A program made the position numbers and the translations under genes. 64,000 nt of DNA from Candidatus Stramentimicrobium fermentans (GTDB taxonomy: Bacteria; Atribacterota; Phoenicimicrobiia; Phoenicimicrobiales; Stramentimicrobiaceae). The first letter of the stretch is position 1. Every line of letters begins with the position of its first letter. The stretch lies in assembly GCA_012520575.1 (NCBI GenBank), contig JAAYOB010000007.1, positions 1-64,000 on the forward strand. Direction: 5' to 3'. Positions 26,430 through 52,620 of the stretch are shown here, one piece after another. The notes beneath the pieces were generated by a model. That model searched no databases, was not told the DNA's origin, and saw only the letters and a list, made by a program, of their open reading frames with translations.

Positions 26430-27341
26430 TTATGTCCTGGGAAAGGCTTTAAAATATTCTTCTTTAATCCATTTTCTGCTAACGTGGGTATAGATTTGTG
26501 TAGTAGAAATATCTGAATGTCCTAACATCTCTTGCACTGTTCTTAAATCCGCCCCATTTTCAATTAAATGAGTAGCCAGGGTGTGCCTTAAAGTATGTGG
26601 TGTAACATTCTTCTTAATGCCTGATTCTCGTGCATATTTCTTTACCAAATAAAAGACACCCTGTCGTGTAATAGACCGACCACGGTTATTTAAAAATAGC
26701 CGGTCTGTCTCTTTTCCTCTTGTTAACTTTGGTCTAACTAATTTAAGATAATCAAGTAAAACCTTTTGTGCCCGGGCCGAAAAGGGAATCCACCTTTCTT
26801 TATTCCCTTTGCCAATGCATTTCAGCAATTTATGGTCCAGATTAAGGTCACTTCTTTTTAGATCTATTAATTCTGAAACTCTTATTCCGGTAGCATACAA
26901 GAGTTCAATTATGGCCTGGTCCCTTTTACCGGCTAGTCCCTTAAAATTTTTCTCCGCTAACAATTTATCTAATTCCCTTAAATTCAAGGCTTCCGGAAGT
27001 TTCTTAGTTACTCTGGGAAATTCAATGTATCTGACCAAATCATTTTGAACATATTTCTCGGTAAGCAAAAAACGGTAAAACATTTTTAAAGCAACTAAAT
27101 TACGGAAAATAGAGTTTGCTGCTAATTTAATTTGATTTAAATAATGATAATATTGGCCAATGATTTCTCGGTCAACTTCCTGAAAGGTTAGCTGTTTTTG
27201 TTCAACAACGAATTCATAGTATTTTAATAAGTCATAGCGATAGGAAACAACGGTATTAAGGGATAGGCCCCTTTCCAGGGTCAGGTGCTCTAAGAAAAAT
27301 TCTATTAATTCTTTTTGTTGTTCATTATCTTTGGTATCGAT
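26430..27341 (-). CDS. Tyrosine recombinase XerD/XerC-like; 5' end uncertain
   Basis: Catalytic R-HxxR-H-Y (GIRVSELIDL, HTLRHTLATHLIENGADLRTVQEMLGHSDISTTQIYTHV). Core-binding domain (EQQKELIEFFLEHLTLERGLSLNTVVSYRYDLLKYYEF) is encoded in frame upstream of the ATG at 27083, but no ATG/GTG/TTG lies between the upstream stop (27359-27357) and that ATG. Confidence 0.85.
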   Translation of the reverse strand: MDTKDNEQQKELIEFFLEHLTLERGLSLNTVVSYRYDLLKYYEFVVEQKQLTFQEVDREIIGQYYHYLNQIKLAANSIFRNLVALKMFYRFLLTEKYVQNDLVRYIEFPRVTKKLPEALNLRELDKLLAEKNFKGLAGKRDQAIIELLYATGIRVSELIDLKRSDLNLDHKLLKCIGKGNKERWIPFSARAQKVLLDYLKLVRPKLTRGKETDRLFLNNRGRSITRQGVFYLVKKYARESGIKKNVTPHTLRHTLATHLIENGADLRTVQEMLGHSDISTTQIYTHVSRKWIKEEYFKAFPRT

Positions 27342-27388: not shown

Positions 27389-28873
27389 TCAATGGATAAT
27401 TTCGGTATCCGGATGCACTATCTGTATCCAGACATTTCCAGGCTGTATTGCTAATCTATTACCATCTTTGTTATAAAAGAAGGTTTTCGATCTCTGCGTT
27501 TCTTTAAGCCAGGTTATTTCTTCCGACCTACCATTGTAAATAATTAACCCCGTCCCTTTACCAATTAAATCAACCGCCAATCTCCCTTCACTATCCAATA
27601 TCTTTTTATTGCTGTGTTGAATAATAATATTTTTGGCCTGTAATTGCTGACCTGTTTCTAAATCAGTGTGGGGTTTCCCATTTATGAAACGGACATATAG
27701 CTGTGTTCCAGAAACATATTCATAACTAACCGAATAGTTAGTATTATATTTAATAGCTATTTTCTGAATATCTTTACCAATTAATTCTTCTCTAGCATCA
27801 ATTTCAAATTGATAATCACCTTTATTGACCATTTCAATATAACCTAATCTCTTGGCCTCTTGTCTCAATTTTTCGGTTGAAGAGTAAAGGTTATGGGGCG
27901 GCTTGCGTTCGGACACTCTCCAAAAGGGCTGAAAATGAATTAATTCATTGATATCATCTATTCTCTCTTCTTTTATAAAAATAGCAGCATCTGGGCTTTC
28001 CCCGGCATGTACATAAACGGCATTGTGCTCCAGAGCTTTAGTAATAAAATAAGGTCTGGCACTACGAATAGGTCCAACTTTATTGGTATCCTGGGTAGCA
28101 AAAATAGCTAAGAAGCGTGTTATTCCTCCTTCTGCTAACACTTCATAGACAATATTGGCATTTCCTAGACCACTTTGTGGACGAGAAACGCTAGCATTAT
28201 CAATCATTATGGCCAGAGGCCTTTGATCAAAAGGAGACTCTTTCTCTGTTGTTTTAGGTAATGTGCTTAATTCTCCTGGAGTTACAATGGTCCCATAGGT
28301 TGACTCAATACGGTCTTGTCCTTCTAAACCTAACCTTGCCTGTATTTCAAATTCACCTTTTTCTAAGACCTCTCCCTCGATTTCTCTACGACTGGCAATA
28401 CTGGGGGTGAGGTCTCGATCAGCTATTTGTACATTAGGCACTATAGATATCTCCTCTTTAATTTGAGCCACCTCTTCCCTAGCCGGGATTTCAATTTCGG
28501 GCATTTTAACCTCAACTCTAGGATTACTTTCCACAACCATTTCATTTTTTTCCACTAATGGCTTGGTTTCAATTTCTTGTATTTTAGCCGGTTCCGGTAG
28601 AGTAGGCTCCACCCTGGGTCTGACGCTGACTTCAGCAATTGGCTCTTCCCTTGTTATCTCAGGCTTTACTGTAGTGGGGCTTTTGATAGAGGGCAGTTCT
28701 ACCATGGTAACCTCAATAATATCTTCAATTTCCGGTATATTTATAAACTCAAAAGAGAGCAGATTGTTAAAAGCCAGAATAAACATGATATTAAGAAATA
28801 TTGAGATTAGGAATGAACGCCCCAAAAAACTTTTGGGCTGCTTTCTTCTTCTTTTTGCTCTATATCCTGCCAT
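27389..28873 (-). CDS. TonB/TolA-like N-terminal anchor plus Pro/Glu-rich linker fused to DUF3048 (YerB-like) domain
   Basis: Basic N-terminus, single TM (SFLISIFLNIMFILAF) then IEVTMVELP and a P/E/V-rich linker; from about residue 215 RPLAIMIDNASVSRPQSGLGNANIVYEVLAEGGITRFLAIF...KVGPIRSARPYF as in DUF3048. Confidence 0.85.
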   Translation of the reverse strand: MAGYRAKRRRKQPKSFLGRSFLISIFLNIMFILAFNNLLSFEFINIPEIEDIIEVTMVELPSIKSPTTVKPEITREEPIAEVSVRPRVEPTLPEPAKIQEIETKPLVEKNEMVVESNPRVEVKMPEIEIPAREEVAQIKEEISIVPNVQIADRDLTPSIASRREIEGEVLEKGEFEIQARLGLEGQDRIESTYGTIVTPGELSTLPKTTEKESPFDQRPLAIMIDNASVSRPQSGLGNANIVYEVLAEGGITRFLAIFATQDTNKVGPIRSARPYFITKALEHNAVYVHAGESPDAAIFIKEERIDDINELIHFQPFWRVSERKPPHNLYSSTEKLRQEAKRLGYIEMVNKGDYQFEIDAREELIGKDIQKIAIKYNTNYSVSYEYVSGTQLYVRFINGKPHTDLETGQQLQAKNIIIQHSNKKILDSEGRLAVDLIGKGTGLIIYNGRSEEITWLKETQRSKTFFYNKDGNRLAIQPGNVWIQIVHPDTEIIH

Positions 28874-28915
28874 TATTTTTATTAAACACCTTATGAATTA
28901 TAATATCTCTTTGAT

Positions 28916-29323
28916 TCATTTTTCCCTAGGCTTAGTTGCTATGGCAATCCTCTCTGCCCCGCCCTTCTTAATCAGGTCCATAACTCTTACTACTTTACCA
29001 TGGGAAATATTCTGATCTGCTTCTAAAACAACCAAGGAATTATGGTTGCTCTTTATCTCTTCCTGTACCTTTTCCGATAAAGAGTTCGGGTCTATCAAGC
29101 GGTTATTGATATAAATTACGTTGTTTTCAGTAATAGTTACTATGGTGTTCTTCTGTTCCTTGACCGCCGCAAAATCGCCGCTTGGCAAATCAACTTTGAC
29201 TCCGCTTTCTACATTGATAAAGGTAGTAGTTAGCATGAAAAAGATGAGTAATTGAAACACGACATCAATTAAAGGAGTTAAATCAAATTTCAGAGCCTTG
29301 GTATTGGGACGATAAAATCTCAT
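28916..29323 (-). CDS. ExbD/TolR family biopolymer transport protein
   Basis: FDLTPLIDVVFQLLIFFMLTTTF with conserved TM Asp; overlaps the ExbB/TolQ gene. Confidence 0.95.
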   Translation of the reverse strand: MRFYRPNTKALKFDLTPLIDVVFQLLIFFMLTTTFINVESGVKVDLPSGDFAAVKEQKNTIVTITENNVIYINNRLIDPNSLSEKVQEEIKSNHNSLVVLEADQNISHGKVVRVMDLIKKGGAERIAIATKPREK

Positions 29324-29954
29324 CTATTTCTATATCCTCCTCTTTAATTTCTCTCTTTACCGATAATAGATCCAAAATTTCTGTACTGGAGGCCTCCATC
29401 TCCCTTATCTGTCTTTCTACTCTATTACTAAGATAATTGTAAGCAACTATGGTGGGAATCGCCACAGAAAGACCAAATGCTGTAGTTAATAAGGCTTCAG
29501 AAATAGCCCCAGCCAGAGCTTCGGGGTTACCAACACCGACAATGGAAATAACCTGAAATCCCTTTATCATGCCAAATACAGTACCTAGCAATCCCAAAAG
29601 AGGGGCAATATTACCGATGGTTGCCAGTATTGGTAAATTTTTTTCTAAAACAATTATTTCTTGATTGGCGGTATCTTCGATTGCTTCTTTTATCTCATCG
29701 CGGGTACCGCCATACTTTAATAAAGCAGCTAAAATAATCTGAGATATAGGAGAATAATTTTTGCGACAGGCAGTAATCGCATAATTAATATTCCCTTTTC
29801 TGATTAAATCACAGATTCGATTACTGAATTTTCGAGTGGAAGTCTTGATGCTCCTTAAAAAAAACATCCGCTCAAAGAATATGGCAATCGCCAATAGGGA
29901 GCAGAAAAATATGGGATACATTAAAACTCCGCCCTTATAAAATAATTCAAACAT
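29283..29954 (-). CDS. MotA/TolQ/ExbB proton channel family protein
   Basis: GGVLMYPIFFCSLLAIAIFFERMFFLR, IGNIAPLLGLLGTVFGMIKGFQ, ISEALLTTAFGLSVAIPTIVAYNYL. Confidence 0.96.
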   Translation of the reverse strand: MFELFYKGGVLMYPIFFCSLLAIAIFFERMFFLRSIKTSTRKFSNRICDLIRKGNINYAITACRKNYSPISQIILAALLKYGGTRDEIKEAIEDTANQEIIVLEKNLPILATIGNIAPLLGLLGTVFGMIKGFQVISIVGVGNPEALAGAISEALLTTAFGLSVAIPTIVAYNYLSNRVERQIREMEASSTEILDLLSVKREIKEEDIEIDEILSSQYQGSEI

Positions 29955-30075: not shown

Positions 30076-33000
30076 TTATTCTAATCTTCTCCTGGCATTA
30101 TCAGCATAAATTGTTTCCGGGCATCTTTGAAGGAGCATTTCATATTTTTCCTTAGCCTGTAACTGATGCCCTGATTCTTCCTGACAAATTGCTGTTATGT
30201 ATAAAACATCACATATATAGGTGCCAGTAGGATAATATTCAAGGTATTTCTCCCCAGCCTGTACGGCTTTTTCGCATTCTTCTTTTTTATAGTAACTCAA
30301 ACAAAGGCCATAGAGAGAATTGGGCTTGTACTTGCTATTTGGAAAACGATCCAATAATTTTTCAAAATTTATGATGCTATCGAACCATTTTTCTTCTTCC
30401 AAGCCTATTTGAGCCATAATGTAGAAGCCTTCTTCATTAAACTGGCTTAGTGGATAAGCCTTCGTAAAATCTTGTAACTCTATCCTTGCTTCACCATATT
30501 CTTTTGCTAAAAAATGGGTCTTTGCTAATAGGTAGGTACCTTCCTCCGCAAATTGACTATCAGGATATTTCTGGACCAACTTGTCAAATGATTCTACTGC
30601 TTTTGAGTAATCAGGGAGGTTTAAATAGCTCCAACCGACACTATATAGCACATGCGCCGCTAAAGAATGTGTATCATAGTGTTTCAAAAATTCCTGATAA
30701 TATTCTATTGCACTACTGAATTTTTCCTGTTTATAGTAAGTTTCAGCCAACATATATAAAGCCCTTATAGAGATTTCATCACCAGTTAAATAATCAATCT
30801 GATGAAAATACTCTTCTGCCTGAGAATAATCAGTTAAACGGAAAAAACATAGCCCTTGCCAATAATATATTTCTTTCCTCATCTTATCGCTGGTAATCAT
30901 ACTTTCGATTCTTTTAAAAAGTTCAACGGCTTCCCGAAATTCGCCTCTTTCATATTTATCTTTAGCCAGGGCAAAATAGCCCTCTCTAGCCAGAGCATCA
31001 TCTGAATGCTGCTCCGTCAATTCCTGATAAAGAGAAAGTAGCCTTTCTTCATCATTCATCTTGTTAGCTGCCTCAATTTTTAACTCCAGTGCTTCTTTAC
31101 TATTAACATCTTCTAAGGCAATCAAAACATTTTGATATCGGCCTGCTTGATAATAACTTCGGGCAAGTTCTAATGTTGCTATGTCAATAATTTCTCCCCC
31201 CGGAAACTGATTGATTACCCGCTCGAAATATGGAATCGCTTTTTGTTCTTCTCCTTTTCTGGCATAAGCCAACCCTAAATCGAACCATATTCTCTCCAGC
31301 AGACTTTCCTCAATATTCTTCTCCGCCAGAGAACTGTCAATTTCGATAACTCTATCATAGTCTTTTTGTTCTAACAATGCTCTAGCTAGAAGATATTGTG
31401 CTTCGAGTTGTATTGGGCTTTCCTTCTTAGTTAATTCCTCTAAAATTACTCTTGCCTCTCGGTAATTGCCCTCTTTGAATAATATAAAGCTAAGATAGTA
31501 TCTGGTTTCATTAATCAATTCAAAATCAGTCTCGTTATTCAAGATATCGGCGAAATATGCTTTTGCCTGATCATAGAGACCTTCCTGAAAATAAGATTGT
31601 CCTAAGATAAAATCAATTTCGCATTTATCAAATACCAAAGGTTCAAACGATAGTAAATTTTCATAGAGGTTGATAGCTTGGGTATACTTTTTTTGCATGA
31701 AATAGACCCTACCTAATTTATAGAGAGTTTCCGGGTAAAGGCTGCTTTTTGGAAAATTCTTACTCAATAATTCCAAGGAAATTTCAGCCTGATTATAGTC
31801 TCCTAACATATAAGCACACCAGCCGCTGCCCAGCAAGGCATTTTCATAATATATGCTATCTTTATAATTATCAATTAGATATATATAATGCTGGTTTGCT
31901 TCGCCATAATGTCCTAATTTATAAGCCGCCTCAGCCATCAAAAATCTCGCCTCAAAAAAATCAGGATTGATAGCCAGGATTTCTCTCAGTTTTTCTAAAG
32001 CCCTTTCATAATCTTCTAAAGAATAATAATTATAAGCTAATTGGTAATATTCCCGCTCCCAATCGATATCGTAAGCCTGGATACCGCCAATTTTCTCTCT
32101 TTCTTCCAGATATTCTTCCATCTGATTTAAATGATAATAGGTACGCATTAAATAAATTCTCGTTTTCTCAAAATTAGAATTCTTCCGGGCAGATTCTTTA
32201 AACTTAAGTAACGCTTCTTCATATTCTCCGGCGATATAATATTGGTAACCTTCATTAAAAGCCCAGACTGTCTCCCTGCCAAATTCTTTTTCTTCCTGAG
32301 CTTTATCCAGGTATATTCTGGCATTATTATCAAAAGGGTCTAAGCGGACAGCATTTTCTAAGTAAATAATTGAGTTGTTTAAGTCTCCAATATGATAATA
32401 ACTTAATCCTAAAAAGTGGTGGGCTCCTTTAAAATCTTTGCTGAGATCAATTGCGAGCTTAAAAAATTCAATAGCTTCCGACCATTTCTTATTGCTATAG
32501 GCATTATATCCGGTAACATATAACTCGTAGGCCTCTTTACCATATAGTTCGGCTTGTTGATACTGGCTGAAAACCCACTCGATATCCTTGCCTGGATCCG
32601 CCTTCTTTATTTCTTCGCCTTGTTCCAGGGCTTTTGCTGTTTGACCTGATTCATAATAAAGCCTCATCAAAAATATCCTTGCCTTTATATTGTTCGGCTG
32701 ATAAAAAATTGCCTCGGTAAGATTGTTAATAGCAGAGGCTGTATCCCCTTTTTCATTATATGAATAGGCTATACGATAAAAAGCCTCCGATAATTTTTGA
32801 TAACTTATCTTAATATTAGTATTATTCTGTACTATTTCAGTAAACCTCTCCAGACTAGCTATTTCTCGAGCAGTCCATTTAGTTCTTTCATATATTTGTG
32901 CCAATAGATAATATGCTTCAGCGAAATGAGGATCCTCTGATACTGCCTTTTCTCCATAATCAATGGCTTTGGCCCAGAGCGGTTTACTGGGGAAATCCAC

Positions 33001-33678
33001 CCCCTGATATTCAGTAATTGCCTGATTCTTTAATTCTAAGGCTTGATAGTAGTTACTTAGAGCTTTCCAAGAAGAAGAAATATTATTTTTTAAGTTAATG
33101 GCTAAATTTTCGTCAATGTCAAAATTGGCTTCTTGTAGTATAGATTGAGCTATACGTTCTTTTAAATAGAAAATATCTTCAGGTATTAAAGTTATCTCTT
33201 GGAATTCAGATAATTTATTGAATTGTGATTGGTACATAATCAGGTTAAACTTGAGGATATCCCTCTGTTCTAATGAAAAATAACCGGTGAAAATCAGGTC
33301 TACCTGTAACAAATCATCTAAGGAATGAAACAAGGAGAGATCTTTCTTCATTGCCAATCCTTGGGCCAAATCGTGGCCTGGCAATTTTTCTATTTCTCCC
33401 AGAGGAATATAATTAATTCTTTCTGATTGAGAGAAGGCCTGGCTCAACATATCAGGGAGACCTCTCTCTAACCAATTCCATTCATCCCTTCCCGTTAGAT
33501 TCTCAAAATAATAGACTGCAAAACTGTGAGTTTCGATAGCAGGAGAAGAGAGGGTAAATATATTGCAAAATAAAGAGATGAAGAATACTAAATAGAAAAA
33601 ATAGCATAATAATGATTTATTTAATATATTATTGACAAAAGCTTTTTTTTTATTATTATTTGAATTTGATAAATTCAC
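30076..33678 (-). CDS. Giant exported TPR protein (1200 aa) with FlgO/CsgG-like N-terminal segment
   Basis: N-terminal TM/signal; FAVYYFENLTGRDEWNWLERGLPDMLSQAFSQ; many TPR/BamD-like repeats to the C-terminus. Confidence 0.85.
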   Translation of the reverse strand: MNLSNSNNNKKKAFVNNILNKSLLCYFFYLVFFISLFCNIFTLSSPAIETHSFAVYYFENLTGRDEWNWLERGLPDMLSQAFSQSERINYIPLGEIEKLPGHDLAQGLAMKKDLSLFHSLDDLLQVDLIFTGYFSLEQRDILKFNLIMYQSQFNKLSEFQEITLIPEDIFYLKERIAQSILQEANFDIDENLAINLKNNISSSWKALSNYYQALELKNQAITEYQGVDFPSKPLWAKAIDYGEKAVSEDPHFAEAYYLLAQIYERTKWTAREIASLERFTEIVQNNTNIKISYQKLSEAFYRIAYSYNEKGDTASAINNLTEAIFYQPNNIKARIFLMRLYYESGQTAKALEQGEEIKKADPGKDIEWVFSQYQQAELYGKEAYELYVTGYNAYSNKKWSEAIEFFKLAIDLSKDFKGAHHFLGLSYYHIGDLNNSIIYLENAVRLDPFDNNARIYLDKAQEEKEFGRETVWAFNEGYQYYIAGEYEEALLKFKESARKNSNFEKTRIYLMRTYYHLNQMEEYLEEREKIGGIQAYDIDWEREYYQLAYNYYSLEDYERALEKLREILAINPDFFEARFLMAEAAYKLGHYGEANQHYIYLIDNYKDSIYYENALLGSGWCAYMLGDYNQAEISLELLSKNFPKSSLYPETLYKLGRVYFMQKKYTQAINLYENLLSFEPLVFDKCEIDFILGQSYFQEGLYDQAKAYFADILNNETDFELINETRYYLSFILFKEGNYREARVILEELTKKESPIQLEAQYLLARALLEQKDYDRVIEIDSSLAEKNIEESLLERIWFDLGLAYARKGEEQKAIPYFERVINQFPGGEIIDIATLELARSYYQAGRYQNVLIALEDVNSKEALELKIEAANKMNDEERLLSLYQELTEQHSDDALAREGYFALAKDKYERGEFREAVELFKRIESMITSDKMRKEIYYWQGLCFFRLTDYSQAEEYFHQIDYLTGDEISIRALYMLAETYYKQEKFSSAIEYYQEFLKHYDTHSLAAHVLYSVGWSYLNLPDYSKAVESFDKLVQKYPDSQFAEEGTYLLAKTHFLAKEYGEARIELQDFTKAYPLSQFNEEGFYIMAQIGLEEEKWFDSIINFEKLLDRFPNSKYKPNSLYGLCLSYYKKEECEKAVQAGEKYLEYYPTGTYICDVLYITAICQEESGHQLQAKEKYEMLLQRCPETIYADNARRRLE

Positions 33679-49521: not shown

Positions 49522-52500
49522 ATGTTTAAACATAAAGAATTTTTTGGAAAGAGAATTTTTTTGTTCCTTATTTTTTCCATCTTTCTATCTCTATTCTATT
49601 TTTCTGTGCCAAACTTTCTTTTTGATAATCCTTCACAGCTAGTTGTTTATAGTAAAAACTATGATCCAACACTCAACTGGAATGTTATAGAGGGCAAACA
49701 TTACTCCATAATCTTCCCGACGGAGATACCAGATAAGGAAGGTTCTCCCTATAAACAGATTGCCCTTCATATCGCTGAAATAGCCGAAGAAATCTATTCT
49801 CAAATAACTCTACAGTTTGGAACGCCTTATAATCCAGATAAGAAATTTGCTATTATTTTAGAAGATTTCCATGATTCGACATATGGATTTGCCTCAACAG
49901 TTCCCCATTATCTTATTCGTATTAATTTGACTGCACCCGGTCCGGAAATTTTCGACACCAAATTTGAAAGCTGGCTAAGAATTTTAATCGCTCATGAATA
50001 TACGCACTTAGCACATTTTGATATGACCGATAAAATGACCACTTTCCTACGCTTTTTTTTAGGTCAAACTATCACCCCAAACGCCTTGCAGCCCCTTTGG
50101 TCTATTGAAGGATTAGCTATTTACAATGAGAGCAGATTAAACGCAGGTAGAGGCCGACTAAAAGATAGCAGATATGAGATGTATCTTAGAACCGATTTTT
50201 TGGAAAACAGATTAAAAAATCTTGAACAATTAGAAGGTGGACACCTGATCTCTTGGCCGGCAGGAAATGCTCCTTATATCTATGGACAATCACTAGTTCA
50301 CTTTATCGCCGAAGTATATGGTGAAGAAAAACTGATAGCCATAAGCAAGCAGTTTTCTTCTTTTCCTCTGCTAGGAATGGACTGGGCGTTAAAAAAAGTT
50401 TTAGGTATTGACCAAAATAAACTATATCAAAGATGGAAGTGTGAGAAAGAACAATATTTCGAACAACAGGTTAGACGTATTGTCAATTCTGATAAAATAA
50501 CCGAATCGCAACAAATTACCGACCACTGTTATTGGGTTGAATGTCCTTCCTGGCTAATTGATAACGATATTAAAGATTCCTCTCTTACTTATAGAGTCTT
50601 TAAGCCACATCTTTACTCCACCATACGTAAATATAACCGGAATTCCGGTAAAGAAAGCTTGTTGATAAAAAGAACAGGCGGACATGGCACCTCTTACTCC
50701 TTTTCACCTGATTTTCAATATCTTCTTTACGCTAAACAAATTCAATATAGTCACTACTATACCTATAATGATCTATTCTTATTTCACTTAAATACTGGTA
50801 AGCAATACCAGCTTACTGAGAGAATGAGAATTAAAGACCCCGCCTGGCACCCTGTGCCGGCTGTTGATAAGATTGTCGCGGTAATCAATCAAGCCGGCTC
50901 TAATAACCTGGTCTTATTCTCTATTCAAAATATTATGCCGCAAAATGAACCAGAACAAATGGATCTTATCAATACTGCCGACCTTACTTATTTAACTAAT
51001 TTTAAAGACGGCTCTCAGATTTACCAACCGGTCTGGTCACCCCAAGGTGACCGAATTGCCTTTTCGTTATGGCGCAAAGGCTATCAAGATATATATGTTA
51101 TTACCCTTGATGAAGATCATCTCAAAATACAATCTATAATACCTATCACTTATGACCGTTATACTGATATTAGTCCCAATTGGTCAGTTGACGGTCAATA
51201 TTTATTTTTTTCGTCAGATCGTAATAAGATATTCAATTTATATGCCTATTCCTTACCTGATAACCAGTTCTACCGCTTAACCAATGTCGCTACCGGTGCC
51301 TTTGAGCCGGCTGTTTCACCTAGCGGAAAAGAGATGGCTTTTGTGCAATACCACGCCTCAGGTTATGAATTACATGTAGCCAAAATGGACGATTTACTCT
51401 GGGAATTAATAGAAGAAACCGACATGGAGGAAACGGCTGATGTCCCCCATCTGCAAGACAATGTCATCTATTTTTTACCTTTAGAATCACTCGAAGATAA
51501 CGAGGTTAATCAATCCTTAGCACTGCCCCATGGTATTCCAAAGAATACTCATTATACTTTAAAGAGCTATTCTCCTTGGGATAGCATTATGCCCAATTAT
51601 TTGTTTCCCTATGCGGATATCGCAGGAGGTAACCTCTATCTGGGAGCCTCAACCCTGGCTCGGGATTATCTAGGATTTTACTCTATCCCGCTTACACTTG
51701 CCTACAATCTTTCTAATAATTCTTTATTTTATAATCTCCAATGTCTCTATACCGCATGTGAACCATCATTTTCCCTTACCTGGCAAGGTGAAACTTCTTA
51801 CTACACCAGACTCCAGCTATCCTTAGAATTCAGCGATAGCGGATATACCGGTAAAGGCGATTCCGATAGGTTATATTCTAGAAACATAACAATGGGGACT
51901 TTGAGTGAATGTTTATTTACTGTTCAAGGGGAACAGGATGAATTATCAGAAAAAACACCCGTTGTAACTAATTCCTTGTTCTTAAGATACACTTACAGTG
52001 ATACTGAAAAATACCAATGGTCTATTGGTCCAGAAATTGGTAATTTATTTTCTGTCAACTACCAATATGCTGTACCCTATACTGACCATGAAGCTGCTTT
52101 TCATAGAATTATCTTTGATAGCAGAAAATATCTACCGCTACCGGTATCCAATCAGGTTCTAGCTTTAAGATTGGTAGCAGGATACTCCTCTAGTGAAATT
52201 GATAAAAATGCTATATTCAGCCTTGGAGGAAACTCATCTGCCCAAAATCTTAGCTCTTTCAATAGCAAAGACTTTGCTTTGAGAGGGTATCCTTCCTCTT
52301 CTTTTGCCGGAAATCACCTCTTGCTTTGTTCGTTAGAGTATCGTTTTCCTCTAAAAAGAGTAGAACAAAAAATAGGCTACAAAGGTGCATCTCTGTTTTT
52401 AGAACAAGTTTTTGGAGCTTTATTTATAGAAGCAGGACATGCGTGGAATAAAAACTCCTTTCCGCGTTTGAAAGATTTTAACGCTTCCCTGGGTGCGGAA

Positions 52501-52620
52501 GTGGGGTTTATACTTAAAACCAGATATACAGAACCACTTACTTTGGCTTTCGGTATTGGAAAGGCCATCACCCAAACCCTCCCTACCCGCTTTTATGGAA
52601 GAATAGGCCTCTCTTTTTGA
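49522..52620 (+). CDS. Exported gluzincin-type protease / TolB-like beta-propeller / outer-membrane beta-barrel fusion
   Basis: Signal peptide; LIAHEYTHLAHFDMTDK (HExxH) plus SIEGLAIYNES; PD40 repeats (YTDISPNWSVDGQYLFFSSDRNKIFNLY); BamA/Omp85-like C-terminal region ending FYGRIGLSF with terminal Phe. Confidence 0.85.
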   Translation: MFKHKEFFGKRIFLFLIFSIFLSLFYFSVPNFLFDNPSQLVVYSKNYDPTLNWNVIEGKHYSIIFPTEIPDKEGSPYKQIALHIAEIAEEIYSQITLQFGTPYNPDKKFAIILEDFHDSTYGFASTVPHYLIRINLTAPGPEIFDTKFESWLRILIAHEYTHLAHFDMTDKMTTFLRFFLGQTITPNALQPLWSIEGLAIYNESRLNAGRGRLKDSRYEMYLRTDFLENRLKNLEQLEGGHLISWPAGNAPYIYGQSLVHFIAEVYGEEKLIAISKQFSSFPLLGMDWALKKVLGIDQNKLYQRWKCEKEQYFEQQVRRIVNSDKITESQQITDHCYWVECPSWLIDNDIKDSSLTYRVFKPHLYSTIRKYNRNSGKESLLIKRTGGHGTSYSFSPDFQYLLYAKQIQYSHYYTYNDLFLFHLNTGKQYQLTERMRIKDPAWHPVPAVDKIVAVINQAGSNNLVLFSIQNIMPQNEPEQMDLINTADLTYLTNFKDGSQIYQPVWSPQGDRIAFSLWRKGYQDIYVITLDEDHLKIQSIIPITYDRYTDISPNWSVDGQYLFFSSDRNKIFNLYAYSLPDNQFYRLTNVATGAFEPAVSPSGKEMAFVQYHASGYELHVAKMDDLLWELIEETDMEETADVPHLQDNVIYFLPLESLEDNEVNQSLALPHGIPKNTHYTLKSYSPWDSIMPNYLFPYADIAGGNLYLGASTLARDYLGFYSIPLTLAYNLSNNSLFYNLQCLYTACEPSFSLTWQGETSYYTRLQLSLEFSDSGYTGKGDSDRLYSRNITMGTLSECLFTVQGEQDELSEKTPVVTNSLFLRYTYSDTEKYQWSIGPEIGNLFSVNYQYAVPYTDHEAAFHRIIFDSRKYLPLPVSNQVLALRLVAGYSSSEIDKNAIFSLGGNSSAQNLSSFNSKDFALRGYPSSSFAGNHLLLCSLEYRFPLKRVEQKIGYKGASLFLEQVFGALFIEAGHAWNKNSFPRLKDFNASLGAEVGFILKTRYTEPLTLAFGIGKAITQTLPTRFYGRIGLSF

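Follow-up and report, generated by a model that had tools for sequence, protein, structure and literature searches.

Introduction

In Escherichia coli, Ser16 and His20 of TonB contact ExbB, and Ser18 and His22 of TolA contact TolQ. TonB also binds the ExbD dimer, through the strand known as the D-box (45-ISVTMVT-51; PMC12215075, PMC10907165). TolA binds CpoB and TolB (PMC8928145). According to a 2025 survey, curated Tol-Pal systems occur in Gracilicutes only (PMC12204202). The same study described the vWA force transducers, encoded after a TPR gene, a tolQ-like and a tolR-like gene and consisting of a transmembrane (TM) helix with an SHLS motif, a motor box, a linker and an end domain other than that of TolA (Williams-Jones et al. 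2025, PMC12204202). Its main text does not contain the term 'DUF' and mentions Atribacteria only within a list of taxa with TonB. On the function of DUF3048 and its representative YerB, we found only annotation and a sporulation gene list in the open-access literature.

A sequence-only reading of 64,000 nucleotides from Candidatus Stramentimicrobium fermentans (Atribacterota; positions 1 to 64,000 of contig JAAYOB010000007.1, hereafter the window) had proposed a Tol/Ton-like machine, driven by proton-motive force (PMF), in which a TonB-like anchor ends in DUF3048. Here we examine this locus computationally and compare it across the phylum and beyond.

Results

Three genes lie on the minus strand of window positions 27389-29954: exbB (223 aa; 29283..29954), exbD (135 aa; 28916..29323) and a gene for a 494-aa protein (27389..28873), the putative force transducer, which we call the anchor. 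The first two overlap by 41 bp, and a 42-bp gap separates exbD from the anchor gene. Pfam identified MotA_ExbB (6e-35) and ExbD (9e-31). Asp20 in the TM segment of ExbD was invariant in the alignment (35/35), which is consistent with a PMF-driven 5:2 motor with proton coupling, and the Thr residues of the ExbB pore region were kept. ORFs, Pfam and alignment thus agree with the overlapping ExbB/TolQ and ExbD/TolR genes, TM Asp retained, that had been read from the letters alone. The best NCBIfam profiles were tolQ (7e-35) and tolR (1.5e-21), neither of which reached its curated equivalog cut-off. By these scores, the motor resembles TolQ/TolR more closely than ExbB/ExbD. In two other genomes (G011, locus L059; G016, L061) exbB is duplicated within the same locus and flanks the TPR gene described below on both sides; in G011 exbD is duplicated along with it, and the copies are apparently near-identical. 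Downstream of the anchor gene of the window lies a xerC/D-type recombinase gene (26430-27341, minus strand). The ORF caller starts this gene at 27083, but alignment with a relative continues in a single frame to ~27341, so that a rare start codon is probably used.

The anchor consists of a TM helix, a D-box, a linker and DUF3048. The AlphaFold2 model contains a single predicted helix in the N-terminal half (residues 17-42; 28748..28825, minus strand, as for all features of this operon); most of this helix and the DUF3048 part were modelled with confidence. The linker (residues 62-211; 28241..28690) is rich in Glu (19%), Pro (10%) and Val (9%), and its low pLDDT predicts that it is largely disordered. 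Pfam matched DUF3048 (1e-46; residues 211-345; 27839..28243) and DUF3048_C (9e-31; residues 372-483; 27425..27760), both far above the curated cut-offs. A sequence search of the PDB returned YerB (2psb) as the sole match (residues 212-489; 5e-47), and Foldseek with the anchor model likewise found 2psb alone (E 4.4e-29, TMt 0.86). Pfam domain, predicted helix and 2psb match therefore uphold the proposed layout of one TM helix, a ~150-residue linker and a C-terminal DUF3048. No TonB C-terminal domain (PF03544 or PF13103) was detected in the anchor, and Pfam and Foldseek found neither TolA domain III nor a vWA domain, the DUF3048 domains being the only ones found. We saw no lipobox in the N-termini of the anchors.

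We aligned 33 anchors and found that Ser24 is invariant (33/33) within an otherwise variable, hydrophobic helix. Position 28 is Asn in 32 of them and His in one, from genome G026, the sole member of its family on a long branch. S24xxxN28 would correspond to the SHLS-type motor contact of TonB and TolA. The D-box (motor box) IEVTMVE (residues 53-59; 28697..28717) is conserved in all 33 anchors, with Glu59 and the following Pro61 invariant and a hydrophobic second position in many relatives. It fits the hydrophobic/hydrophilic pattern published for the D-box (compare ISVTMVT of E. coli TonB). Both motifs noticed in the single sequence are thus present and belong, phylum-wide, to the best-conserved part of the anchor's first 60 residues. 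A co-change of Asn28 with a Trp in TM1 of ExbB was considered and dropped: this Trp is also missing from the TonB-type ExbBs of the phylum, which allows no inference.

The resemblance of the N-terminal half to TonB is short. Pfam yielded no TonB or TolA match there, and the NCBIfam TonB profile matched the anchor weakly (E 0.005). When we searched ~240 out-of-phylum genomes with a profile of the anchor family, two proteins only matched by the N-terminus alone (E 2.5e-6 and 8.7e-6), scores that may owe part to the composition of the linker. Both are SxxxH-helix proteins encoded directly after ExbD/TolR, one of them in an apparently complete Tol-Pal operon, and genomic placement had played no role in the search. 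The TonB/TolA-like character of the front half therefore does leave a signal in profile searches.

Searching proteins of 50 Atribacterota genomes, we obtained an anchor match in 46, covering all 22 genera. By our reading of the match table, 43 of these matches were essentially full length. In G015 and G039 the anchor is interrupted or runs into a contig end, with the N-terminal part visible, which brings the architecture to 45/50 genomes; G034 has DUF3048 pieces only. Four genomes gave no match, and three of them are ≤75% complete. At loci with enough upstream sequence, ExbD adjoins the anchor in 29/29 cases and ExbB is present in 28/28; a large TPR protein was found at 26 of 27 loci with enough sequence, and the exception (L070) has a partial TPR ORF. 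The order TPR-exbB-exbD-anchor is kept throughout the phylum. As both this order and the domain architecture are found phylum-wide, they are neither chance nor an assembly accident, and the combination that the sequence-only reading had picked out is not confined to one assembly.

In a scan of 85,462 species, the full architecture was present in all 18 Atribacterota among the best 80 matches, nearly all with ExbBD beside the anchor (the two gaps are contig ends). At the 62 non-Atribacterota loci among these best 80 matches (Bacillota, Patescibacteria and others), ExbB/ExbD was never found beside DUF3048. A D-box and SxxxN/H helix joined to DUF3048 was not found in ~480 genomes sampled outside Atribacterota, namely the ~240 genomes above, 40 from a second DUF3048-rich phylum and 200 from the phylum of G100. 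Among the matches listed for out-of-phylum genomes, those that extend into DUF3048 all begin at profile position 85 or later. Restriction of the architecture to Atribacterota is, on these samples, well supported if not proven.

In a tree of 108 DUF3048 domains, all 33 anchors formed one clade (support 100/99), which gives them a single origin; the simplest reading would be one fusion, early in the phylum, of a TonB/TolA-like front half with a DUF3048 domain. In some Atribacterota genomes there is an additional DUF3048 gene that stands alone and lacks the TonB-like half. The five such paralogues sampled formed their own clade elsewhere in the tree, where the surrounding deep branches are weakly supported. 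DUF3048 is highly conserved among the anchors, and residues such as R253, R270, R273, R319, R395 and N328 are invariant between anchors and motor-less DUF3048 proteins of Bacillota. These shared, charged residues suggest a ligand common to both envelope types, which by the same reasoning would favour a wall-related ligand over outer-membrane proteins. A loosely defined lipobox was present in 35 of 63 DUF3048 proteins from outside Atribacterota.

The neighbourhoods of other DUF3048 genes were inspected as well. Many, mostly from Bacillota (L102-L163), lie among housekeeping genes resembling ybeY, dgkA, cdd, era and recO (named by eye). We considered this context as a clue to function and discarded it, as it does not inform on mechanism. 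A ybeY/cdd/recO/glyQ-like neighbourhood also surrounds the lone Atribacterota paralogue (L192-L196). The second phylum (that of G167; L186, L203-L208) has proteins of 600-700 aa in which a long Pro-rich linker fuses DUF3048 to a secreted helical domain; they carry a signal peptide. We considered them as a potential further case of the anchor architecture, but no motor genes were seen in the flanks examined. Two loci (L136 and L147, one titled Patescibacteria) have two adjacent DUF3048 genes in tandem. Eight faecal records titled 'Bacteriophage sp.' (MT835478, MT835694 and others) also encode DUF3048 proteins (27-35% identity among the matches listed), which may represent host carry-over.

Upstream of exbB, the conserved operon partner (30076..33678) encodes a secreted 1200-aa protein full of TPRs. 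It passed the cut-off of TIGR02795 (ybgF/CpoB; 5e-62) and is far longer than CpoB. The first ~150 residues after its signal segment form a domain (33124..33531) resembling TolB-N, CsgG and LpoB. Single sequences of this domain gave weak matches to TolB_N (best 0.005) and CsgG (best 7.5e-5), and profile comparison by hhalign gave 86% to real TolB. With its predicted structure (pLDDT 86), TolB accounted for 17 of 20 Foldseek matches at E ≤ 0.001, followed by PelC, CsgG and LpoB. As LpoB and CsgG share this fold, it is no proof of a TolB role. Conservation of the domain is low (mean column identity 27%). Taken together, this TPR protein with a TolB-N-like start seems to be part of the anchor system.

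The search for tolB, pal, tonB and TonB-dependent receptors, the company in which a conventional system would be expected, had a mixed outcome. TolB (TolB_N) exceeded the threshold in none of the 50 Atribacterota genomes. OmpA-type domains were patchy (28/50), many beside MotA and thus probably MotB, and the genome of the window has only a sub-threshold OmpA-type match of 36 residues where Pal is concerned. TonB_C was found in 10/50 genomes, in nine of these with a second ExbB beside TonB, and the receptor Plug domain in 13/50, mostly together with canonical TonB. In the genome of the window, another contig (C3) encodes a canonical TonB (PF03544, SxxxH helix) with a second ExbB/ExbD and a 630-aa TonB-dependent receptor. 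This TonB has its own motor and is not a rival partner for the exbBD of the window. The anchor is near-universal and TonB with its own ExbBD is patchy, which makes the anchor system core and TonB accessory.

Omp85 was present in 48/50 genomes, which indicates that the phylum is diderm. SLH proteins, many of ~570 aa and some encoded near Omp85, were found in 39/50 and look as expected for OmpM-type tethers. No outer-membrane partner encoded phylum-wide in the operon was identified. Elsewhere in the window (49522-52620, plus strand), a 1032-aa protein combines a peptidase-MA-like region and WD40-like PD40 repeats with an Omp85 barrel and is similar to the OMP-TolB-like proteins described in PMC12204202. 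The two nearest families have, in most of their genomes, a second Omp85 match, usually within an ORF of comparable length; elsewhere in the phylum such a match is rare. The 1032-aa protein could be an outer-membrane partner in this lineage.

Discussion

We propose that the operon encodes an Atribacterota-specific, proton-driven trans-envelope force transducer of Tol/Ton type, in which DUF3048 takes the place of TolA domain III (probability roughly 0.7). Motor-contact motifs, ExbBD linkage and the separate Ton set support the PMF-driven machine first suggested from the sequence, and our findings refine it toward TolQ/TolR and a TPR partner. An ExbB pentamer and an ExbD dimer would form the proton motor. 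The TM helix of the anchor would dock on ExbB via Ser24 and Asn28, and its D-box on the periplasmic ExbD dimer. Proton flow would then put the linker, rich in Glu and Pro, under tension, and DUF3048 at its far end would hand the force to a periplasmic partner. This partner may be peptidoglycan, or a factor in its synthesis, with the TolB-N/TPR protein from the same operon taking part in the contact. In this way the system would coordinate wall and outer membrane much as Tol does, in a phylum that lacks TolB and whose tethers may be of the SLH/OmpM rather than the Pal type. By homology, we have high confidence that the anchor attaches to ExbB/ExbD, which power it. Our confidence is low that the load held by DUF3048 is peptidoglycan or a wall-synthesis factor, and that DUF3048 and the TolB-N/TPR protein act jointly in a Tol-like role. 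'Tol-like' is an analogy drawn from company and context, YerB being the sole relative with a solved structure.

The anchor might instead be a plain tether, with DUF3048 keeping an ordinary YerB-type binding or enzymatic function in the envelope and the TonB-like segment only holding it near the motor, or letting a ligand gate the motor, with no useful pull. The residues invariant between anchors and Bacillota proteins fit this idea, as the domain's task in the latter needs no ExbBD. However, strict ExbBD linkage and both motor-contact motifs, kept phylum-wide, would then be needless, and a lipoprotein signal of the sort seen in roughly half of the remaining DUF3048 proteins would suffice; we consider this reading unlikely. 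Unlikely, too, and rated a little lower, is that the anchor mainly moves the TPR/TolB-N protein, with DUF3048 as an adaptor. Conservation of that protein beside the motor, its TolB-N-like domain and the binding of CpoB and TolB by TolA in E. coli (PMC8928145) would agree with such a load, yet it is DUF3048 that is highly conserved and the TPR N-domain that is not.

A TonB-like front half and an ExbBD partner could also suggest that the anchor is a functional TonB that energises TonB-dependent receptors with DUF3048 for a TonB C-terminal domain. Receptors do not follow the anchor, though: Plug-containing genomes are a minority and mostly have canonical TonB with its own ExbBD, and the anchor has no TonB_C domain. 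On the distribution of receptors versus anchors we rejected TonB-dependent import by the anchor, which is very improbable. Nothing spoke for misassembly, frameshift fusion or chance adjacency: the architecture is unbroken in 43 of 50 independent assemblies, including the single-contig genomes G005 and G025, with the same neighbours, and an artefact has a negligible chance of being the explanation.

The force transducer with DUF3048 in place of TolA domain III, which we prefer, may extend further. It is possible, and we put it forward only tentatively, that these operons constitute a third family of proton-driven transducers, one that was present in the ancestor of Atribacterota and marks the phylum. 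DUF3048 would bear the force by holding on to peptidoglycan or to a wall-synthesis factor, and together with the TolB-N/TPR fusion it would substitute fully for Tol-Pal without TolA domain III, TolB propeller or Pal. The system is a candidate for the machine that energises the envelope in diderms with neither TolB nor Pal. It also gives DUF3048, a widespread orphan domain common in Bacillota, a mechanical context and with it a handle on its ligand and a testable role. Since cultured Atribacterota exist (Atribacter laminatus RT761 and isolate B11T), the native proteins are obtainable.

With TonB-ExbB-ExbD, the anchor system shares the ExbB/ExbD motor, a single TM anchor with a motif resembling SxxxH, a proline-containing linker and a near-identical D-box (IEVTMVE versus ISVTMVT). 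In contrast to TonB, the anchor lacks TonB_C, has Asn for His in nearly all members and is not tied to TonB-dependent receptors. Like Tol-Pal, it has a motor that scores best with TolQ/TolR, a CpoB/YbgF-type TPR gene in the operon and a TolB-N-like domain, here fused to that TPR protein; unlike Tol-Pal, the operon has neither TolA domain III nor a TolB propeller, in a phylum without TolB over threshold and without a supported Pal. YerB and other DUF3048 lipoproteins share with the anchor the complete N- and C-terminal DUF3048 domains, the fold and the invariant residues; outside Atribacterota, however, ExbBD was adjacent at none of the 62 loci among the best 80 matches, and many members are lipoproteins, whereas no lipobox was seen in the anchors. 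The vWA force transducers follow the same gene and domain plan (PMC12204202), but they end in vWA instead of DUF3048, occur in other phyla and have paired tolR-like genes. They are a precedent for an end domain other than that of TolA, and after the vWA class DUF3048 would be the second end domain on a 5:2 motor that differs from those of TolA and TonB. New in our study is that the conserved TPR protein upstream opens with a TolB-N-like domain.
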